Shown here in pieces: positions 15,566 through 17,009 of a stretch of DNA of 64,000 nt (positions are counted from its first letter, which is position 1; each line of letters begins with the position of its first letter). A model generated the notes under the pieces. That model had not been told where the DNA came from. It saw only the letters and a list, made by a program, of their open reading frames with translations, and searched no databases. This DNA comes from an uncultured Pelagibacteraceae bacterium (GTDB taxonomy: Bacteria; Pseudomonadota; Alphaproteobacteria; Pelagibacterales; AG-422-B15), in assembly GCA_902564025.1 (NCBI GenBank), contig CACEZK010000001.1, forward strand, positions 1 through 64,000. Reading direction: 5' to 3'. The position numbers were made by a program, and so were the translations under genes.

Positions 15566-15620
15566 ATTTTTAAATTATAGAATAAGTGAAAAAAGATTTA
15601 AGTGTAAAAAAATATTTTTT

Positions 15621-15681
15621 TTGGTGGGCCCACTAGGACTCGAACCTAGGACAACTCCGTTATGAGCGGAGGGCTCTAACC
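15621..15681 (-). pseudogene. tRNA(CAT) 3'-fragment: exact 61-bp copy of 16932..16992 (putative att site)
   Basis: Identical from the CCA end through T-arm, variable region and anticodon stem-loop; diverges from 15682 so the D-arm and 5' acceptor strand are absent. Confidence 0.88.
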
Positions 15682-15822
15682 TTTAAGCTAGGTTAGGTAA
15701 TAAATTTTAGTCTGTAAACATGTAGTTTTAGACAATAAGTACGACATATTCACTACAAAAATTAATATCTTTTTTTTTAATATTTTAGCTAGAATTAATA
15801 CATAAATCTAGAGGAGGTTCTT

Positions 15823-16851
15823 ATGAAAAAAATTTTATTAATCTTTATTACCTTAATCTTTACTAACATTGCTCACGCAGAAACTGTCTTAAGAGTTGTA
15901 GACTCAGGTAGTATACAGGGAAATGGTAGTCAAGATATGATCATCTCAAGTATTGATACAACTACAGGCACCGAAACGACGCTTTTAACTTTCAATGCTG
16001 TAGCAAGTAGAGCTACTGGTTTAACGTTTATGGATGATTACAACAATAAACTTTATATAGGTCACTCAGCAGGTCGTTATTCAGTATACGATATTAATAC
16101 GAATACTGTAACAGCTACGACTATTGGAAATGGTGGTGAGGTTTTTCAATCAGGATGGAATGGTTCTAATGTAATAGCTACCGGTACCGACGCTGAAGAT
16201 GGAAGCTCAACGACTATCCTAGGTTCACTTGATATTTCTGACTCTAACGGAAATACTTTGATTGAGAACAAGGCCGATGGCAGTGTTCATATTGGTGAAA
16301 ATTCACTAGTAACTATTGAATCTGGTGGAAGACAACAATTGTATGCAACCGATGCAACTGGAAGTAGAATCGATATTAATATTCCCTCTGGAACAAATCT
16401 ATTGATAGATGGTGAAGATGTAATGGGAAGTATCGATAGCTCTATTGCATTGGGTGCTGCATTTGCATCACTGCCAACTGGAGCAGAAGGTGCAGGATAC
16501 ACTTGCGGTCTTGGAACTGGATTTCATGACAGTGCATCAGCGATATCTGGCGGATGTGGGTTTGATTTTGCAAATTATTCATTTGTTGACTCAATGCCTG
16601 AATTATTTCAAAAGGCATCATTCAATATTGGTGCTGCATCAGTCGTTCACGGTGAAGGTGATGATGCAACTTTGAAAGCTGGTATTACGTTTAAATTTGG
16701 AGCTCCAAAGCCTGTTAGAGAAGCTAAAGATAACAACTTATTACTTGAGAATAAAATAGACGCGGTGATGGCTGAGAATGATTCATTAAAAGCTCAAATT
16801 GCAGAAATTAATACTCAGCTTAAGGCCTTAAATATGTTGGCAATGAATTAA
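15823..16851 (+). CDS. Secreted protein with a YadA-type anchor-like region and C-terminal coiled coil
   Basis: GAGGAGG RBS, signal peptide MKKILLIFITLIFTNIAHAE; SSIALGAAFASLP...GAGYTCGLGTGFHDSASAISGGCGF...KASFNIGAASVVHGEGDDATLKAGITFKFG resembles the YadA anchor; then heptad-like NLLLENKIDAVMAENDSLKAQIAEINTQLKALN. Confidence 0.6.
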   Translation: MKKILLIFITLIFTNIAHAETVLRVVDSGSIQGNGSQDMIISSIDTTTGTETTLLTFNAVASRATGLTFMDDYNNKLYIGHSAGRYSVYDINTNTVTATTIGNGGEVFQSGWNGSNVIATGTDAEDGSSTTILGSLDISDSNGNTLIENKADGSVHIGENSLVTIESGGRQQLYATDATGSRIDINIPSGTNLLIDGEDVMGSIDSSIALGAAFASLPTGAEGAGYTCGLGTGFHDSASAISGGCGFDFANYSFVDSMPELFQKASFNIGAASVVHGEGDDATLKAGITFKFGAPKPVREAKDNNLLLENKIDAVMAENDSLKAQIAEINTQLKALNMLAMN

Positions 16852-16866
16852 GTTTTTTCCCTTCTA

Positions 16867-16888
16867 ATGACGACCAGATGACGACTCG
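16867..16888 (+). repeat. Tandem imperfect 11-bp repeat next to the tRNA boundary
   Basis: ATGACGACCAG then ATGACGACTCG, 9/11 identical, immediately adjacent. Confidence 0.7.
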
Positions 16889-16932
16889 CGTTGAATGATA
16901 ATGAAGTGAAAAATAATATTTGGCTATTTTCT

Positions 16933-17009
16933 TGGTGGGCCCACTAGGACTCGAACCTAGGACAACTCCGTTATGAGCGGAGGGCTCTAACCAACTGAGC
17001 TATGGGCCC
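16933..17009 (-). tRNA. tRNA with CAT anticodon (Ile2/lysidine type or elongator Met; Ile2 favoured)
   Basis: Cloverleaf GGGCCCATAGCTCAGTTGGTTAGAGCCCTCCGCTCATAACGGAGTTGTCCTAGGTTCGAGTCCTAGTGGGCCCACCA; 7-bp acceptor, anticodon loop CTCATAA, encoded CCA. Confidence 0.95.

Follow-up and report, generated by a model that had tools for sequence, protein, structure and literature searches.

The locus

The window, by which we mean the whole 64,000-nucleotide stretch analyzed here, carries an intact tRNA(CAT) gene on the minus strand (16933..17009, called by ARAGORN), the presumed integration target. On the same strand, at 15622..15681, lies a distal copy of the 3′ part of this tRNA (positions 18-77; core at 15622-15667), identified by sequence match and fragment comparison. 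The initial annotation reported that 15621-15681 equals 16932-16992 base for base at an offset of 1311, and a sequence match confirms this. Comparison of 15616-15681 with 16927-16992 gives one mismatch in 66 positions. The interval was also correctly described as holding one open reading frame (ORF; 15823..16851, plus strand, 342 amino acids) and no integrase, the sole ORF not encoding one. The ORF call gives a protein with a probable signal peptide and a C-terminal coiled-coil–like tail.

Eleven congeners show this arrangement around other cargo. Thus, the repeat in the window is not a chance match, and its reading as a tyrosine recombinase–type insertion at a tRNA gene gains support. The interval in the window has a restored tRNA 3′ part, a direct repeat at the far end, and unoccupied counterparts in relatives, as expected of a tRNA-integrating element; it has no integrase of its own. 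We refer to such intervals as cassettes.

In most other cassettes, identity to the tRNA begins within the anticodon loop, at position 32, so the crossover most likely occurs there. By this fragment comparison, the cassette-supplied 3′ half of the intact tRNA would be 16933-16978 (minus strand; tRNA positions 32-77), and the 14 extra bases of the copy in the window (the side of positions 18-31) would be the element’s own end.

Occupied and unoccupied sites in relatives

We compared 34 congener sites adjoining rpoD (the rpoD-tRNA junction) in genomes that are mostly draft assemblies, 53 to 100% complete (77% for the genome of the window). At 22 of these sites, no second tRNA copy lies downstream; one of them (L057) has a cassette-type right end without the distal copy. 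Another 11 sites contain one or two tRNA fragments, each ending a short interval, with cargo that differs between sites. Stacked (tandem) cassettes occur at filled sites. The last site (L068) is interrupted by a contig end, and its genome has an array opening another contig (L017). Empty sites and variable cargo, to which the initial annotation had pointed as signs of a mobile island, are therefore both present: Close relatives have one tRNA and no insert, and relatives carry other genes between the same repeats.

These insertions are precise. The flanks of filled sites align with those of unfilled sites: The run past the distal fragment in the window matches the run past the intact tRNA in L050, and the same relationship holds between L053 (filled) and L054.

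Cassettes of the same kind also occupy tRNA-Lys(TTT) in the window’s own genome (C20), in G031 (two cassettes), and in G061. At both the Met and Lys sites, the fragments start at position 32 plus or minus a few bases, except where the element end lengthens the match. In a comparison of 19 tRNA species, Met(CAT) and Lys(TTT) are alike at 18 of 20 anticodon-arm-region bases outside the anticodon. The next-best tRNA, Ile, reaches 13 of 20, and only Met(CAT) and Lys(TTT) have a common core. The 342–amino acid cargo family occurs at both sites, residing at tRNA-Met or at tRNA-Lys depending on the genome.

In G000 and G025, but not in G066, the tRNA-Thr(TGT) gene has partial copies at a distance of ~300-400 bp (L122:1172-1212 and L123:1121-1151); their geometry is unlike that of the cassettes.

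Cassette ends and arm repeats

Cassette ends are conserved across unrelated cargo. The right end in the window (16877..16932, minus strand) directly follows the restored CCA and is of the same type as in the 342–amino acid family cassettes of L016 and L017. Over the first 56 bases past the CCA, many cassettes whose cargo is unrelated resemble one another (z > 4 for 28 of 78 pairs). The conserved left end, which precedes the crossover (15668..15725, minus strand), is likewise common to cassettes with unrelated cargo: In the window, it scores z = 10.8 to 12.1 against three cassettes with other cargo, and 11 of 55 cassette pairs exceed z = 4 over the 58 bases preceding the crossover.

The arms also carry short direct repeats with an 11-bp period. 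The right arm in the window contains GTCGTCATCTG GTCGTCAT (16867..16885, minus strand; lag-11 repeat, P = 0.0027 against 4000 random windows), which are putative arm-type integrase sites. The left arm contains GTAGTGAATAT GTCGTACTTAT (15735..15756, minus strand), weak here and clearer in L016 and L017. Of the 20 right arms tested against 4000 random windows, 14 have a lag-11 direct repeat pair at P < 0.01, and none has one at lags 9, 10, 12, or 13. Left arms have lag-11 repeats in 6 of 20 cases (P < 0.01). The arm repeats lie at +23 to +58 on the right and ~134-173 nt before the end on the left. Repeat types among cassettes include GTGCGGGAT, GCAGTCAT, and GCAGGCCA, and arms from the same cassette tend to share a type (permutation P = 1e-4; 11 cassettes, picked for different cargo). 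Most cassettes thus have the paired direct repeats in both arms that characterize a lambda-type attP; the pairs are weak in L058, L066_1, and the left arm of the window, and the FkbM cassette of L063 and L081 has no arm repeats. In sequence, the repeats resemble the arm-type sites that lambda-like tyrosine integrases recognize. The integration host factor (IHF) consensus is matched perfectly in the right arm of L064 and L072 only.

Searches of a phage collection returned no core match above 95% identity, the matches listed being mostly annotated tRNA genes, and matches to cassette arms were at chance level only.

Cargo

The 21 cassettes that we measured span 193 to 1589 bp. Most have a single ORF, and those bearing cargo have one to three; the tRNA-Lys cassette of the window’s genome has three small ORFs. 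Cargo kinds include a 4HBT thioesterase, FkbM and TylF methyltransferases, small lipoprotein-like and exported proteins, and the 342–amino acid family of the window. The smallest unit (193 bp, L076 in G014) has both ends and arm-type repeats and no gene; it is perhaps a cassette after cargo loss.

In the 342–amino acid family, the N-terminal half is variable and the C-terminal part is conserved. No Pfam family scores above cutoff for the cargo ORF of the window, no relative of it was found in the phage collection, and a single-sequence fold prediction was poor (pLDDT 41.6). A trimeric-autotransporter reading was considered from its layout by eye only, and we make no such claim. Across family members (L015, L016, L017, and the window), N- and C-terminal halves seem to be differently combined; L016_2 and L015lys_1, for example, have a common N-terminal half and different C-terminal parts. 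These combinations suggest domain exchange within the family.

A candidate helper integrase

The genome of the window encodes just two PF00589 proteins, located at the two places seen genus-wide, which we take to be XerC and XerD. Tyrosine recombinases of the genus comprise these two conserved proteins and a few element-borne ones; most genomes have only the conserved two. No helper-type integrase was found in 44 genomes of the genus, and none of the cassette repeat types was seen at any integrase found in this analysis. Searches with PF14659 or PF00589 alone did not reach integrases of the helper type.

An integrase-bearing element of matching anatomy is present in G085, a genome from a different genus of the same family, where it occupies one of the tRNAs that the cassettes target. 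This 6617-bp element follows tRNA-Lys(TTT) and is closed by a second copy of tRNA positions 32-76; it thus has the same crossover as the cassettes. It encodes a 336–amino acid tyrosine integrase, starting 92 nt past the CCA, as well as excisionase-like and primase-like proteins. Its arms (TGACGTCCATATGACGTCC at +56 and TGACGTCCCTCTGACGTAC ~181 nt before the element end) are near the cassette geometry. At the cassette loci that we read, no integrase element lies in tandem with a cassette.

Other genomes of the order contain 17 further integrases of this type, most adjoining tRNA sequence. An 11- or 12-bp repeat lies directly upstream of 13 of the 18 helper-type integrases (P < 0.01), and its sequence differs between most of them. 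In several, the repeats are followed by a ribosome-binding region with AGAAAGGAAAAA or a near-match. The cassette in the window contains AGAAGGGAAAAA (16854..16865, minus strand), which has one mismatch to AGAAAGGAAAAA, a similarity reached by 0.25% of background windows, and which appears to be a remnant of this integrase-preceding region. Five cassettes of the 342–amino acid family, including that of the window, keep this integrase-upstream stretch (zero to two mismatches) without the integrase, and their cargo gene begins straight after it. Because it retains this stretch, which in integrase-bearing elements immediately precedes the integrase gene, the cassette in the window probably arose from a larger element.

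Three other integrases were rejected as helpers. The elements in G065 and G008 both show 11-bp repeats, but what they copy is the 5′ part of other tRNAs, which led us to discard them; the integrase in G032 has no link to this site. The G065 element (L156:3553-10419), at tRNA-Leu(CAA), has a 401–amino acid integrase adjoining the tRNA, a far-end copy of tRNA positions 1-40, and the repeats ACTTTCGCATA. The G008 element (L150:3195-9180, ~6 kb), at tRNA-Gly(GCC), encodes a 439–amino acid integrase; a second, short ORF is integrase-like, and a further match, to a G2P-type replication protein, is weak. Opposite to the cassettes, this element copies the 5′ part of its tRNA (positions 1-44). In G032, a prophage-like stretch (L149 and L157; C1:109-132 kb) includes a 415–amino acid integrase.

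Distribution across species and beyond the genus

Near-identical cassettes occur in different species. Thioesterase cassettes are 97.5 to 99.5% identical, whereas the neighboring rpoD region is 82 to 91% identical; the FkbM cassettes of L063 and L081 are 98.4% identical, against 79.4% for rpoD. The cassette in the window is 83% identical to that of its nearest relative (L016), and rpoD 84%. It is therefore no closer to its relative than rpoD is, and this copy may have been inherited vertically.

Cassette anatomy extends beyond the genus of the window. In a second family of the order, two genomes carry multi-ORF islands (1.3 and 2.1 kb) at tRNA-Met with 12-bp-spaced arm repeats of the type TTGTGTAC. 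No such anatomy was seen in the 16 complete or near-complete genomes examined first.

Proposed mechanism and alternatives

We consider it likely that 15622-16932 is an integrated, nonautonomous, one-gene cassette with an attP only, derived from an integrase-bearing element and mobilized in trans by integrases of such elements. The two cassette ends would together form an attP, in which the tRNA 3′ half is the core and the arms carry the 11-bp-spaced repeats. Another element, acting as a helper within this genus, would supply a tyrosine integrase of the lambda-like, arm-binding type, which would bind both arms and core. At the anticodon loop of tRNA-Met(CAT) or tRNA-Lys(TTT), this enzyme would then recombine a circular form of the cassette with the tRNA gene. 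Recombination would restore the tRNA and leave its old 3′ part on the far side; as the tRNA is restored upon insertion, further cassettes could stack. Cassettes probably originated from integrase-bearing elements through substitution of a single cargo gene for all of the sequence between the arms, and they would also pass between cells.

The initial annotation had left two options, a satellite-like element mobilized in trans or the decayed remnant of a larger island. According to the second, cassettes are immobile remains of integrase islands cut down to one gene, with unoccupied sites never hit or later cleaned. The integrase-upstream remnant without its integrase, the equal divergence of the window’s cassette and rpoD, the weak arms in some copies, and the cargo-less L076 unit all fit this reading. 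Yet decay would not keep arm pairs and ends alike across unrelated cargo, and the thioesterase and FkbM cassettes are near-identical in diverged species. We therefore regard dead remnants as improbable. The satellite-like option fits better, given the conserved ends, the within-cassette match of arms, and the near-identity between species; what stands of the other option is the probable origin from a larger element.

A second alternative, that host XerC and XerD integrate the cassettes as they do for Xer-exploiting elements, is in keeping with most genomes of the genus, where no other tyrosine recombinases were found. However, Xer recombinases act at dif-like cores and have no arm-binding domain, whereas the cassette core is a tRNA anticodon arm and its paired arm repeats resemble those at integrase-bearing elements, making this route very unlikely. 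Equally slight is the chance that cassettes spread mainly by homologous recombination of flanks and tRNA copies after DNA uptake, with no present site-specific step: This would explain the repeat-less FkbM cassette common to L063 and L081, but breakpoints are located at the tRNA, the genes downstream of a shared cassette differ between genomes, and rpoD, on its other flank, is not carried along.

Mobilization in trans bears on an open question, namely, by what means free-living bacteria with very small genomes and few visible mobile elements gain genes. The streamlined genomes examined here appear to acquire genes singly, using the integrase of another element. The cassettes offer a concrete, small-scale answer: one gene and two landing signals, with the integrase not retained. 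More tentatively, a pool of integrase-free single-gene cassettes might constitute an integron-like gene exchange of streamlined bacteria, in which the tRNA core would determine where a cassette lands and its arm repeats would serve as address tags for the integrase, from one visiting element or another, that can move it. The arm repeats make the pairing of helper and cassette testable, and searches for a tRNA fragment together with 11-bp repeats could expose cassettes elsewhere that now pass as ordinary genes.

Comparison with known systems

The cassettes share features with several known systems. One is that of the cis-mobilizable elements (CIMEs) related to ICESt1, for which an origin by decay from ICEs or IMEs has been described (PMC5704250). 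Like cassettes, CIMEs and accretion elements keep att sites, lack recombinase and transfer genes, and stack in tandem at a tRNA 3′ end (PMC5704250). Cassettes have an att core and arm repeats, which may form functional attL and attR sites, and no recombinase or transfer genes. They differ from CIMEs in their one-gene size, in the many cargoes between the same ends, and in having arms on both sides with no resident helper in tandem.

The Dehalococcoides ssrA islands, 15 of which have no integration module and are proposed to move with their neighbors (PMC3146451), are likewise tandem and bounded by copies of an RNA-gene 3′ end. They are larger, use a serine recombinase, and include integrase-bearing islands in the same array.

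In the available part of its description, the additive tRNA-Lys island of Methylopumilus (PMC10872708) resembles the cassettes in its streamlined planktonic host, its tRNA-Lys 3′-end repeats, and its content of at least one coding sequence. It differs in its 20-nt repeats and in islands of up to 42 kb; that part of the text contains no report of arm repeats or integrase analysis. Tycheposons, as described in two reports, are also tRNA-targeted cargo elements of streamlined marine bacteria, with sizes of 4 to 200 kb and a tyrosine recombinase (PMC10872708, PMC11389934). By that description (PMC10872708), cassettes fall outside this class, being 0.2 to 1.6 kb long and without a recombinase.

Integron gene cassettes are similar in comprising single genes with a common recombination site that stack and rely on a recombinase in trans. 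In contrast, the cassettes described here use tRNA 3′ halves as sites, accompanied by double-stranded arm repeats. These sites occur at two tRNA genes rather than a single attI, with no integron integrase, and no folded attC site is described for them. By this comparison, the cassettes would work like integron cassettes without being integron cassettes. They appear to differ from the closest systems in being of one-gene size, in recurring with many cargoes, and in having matched arms with no helper in tandem.
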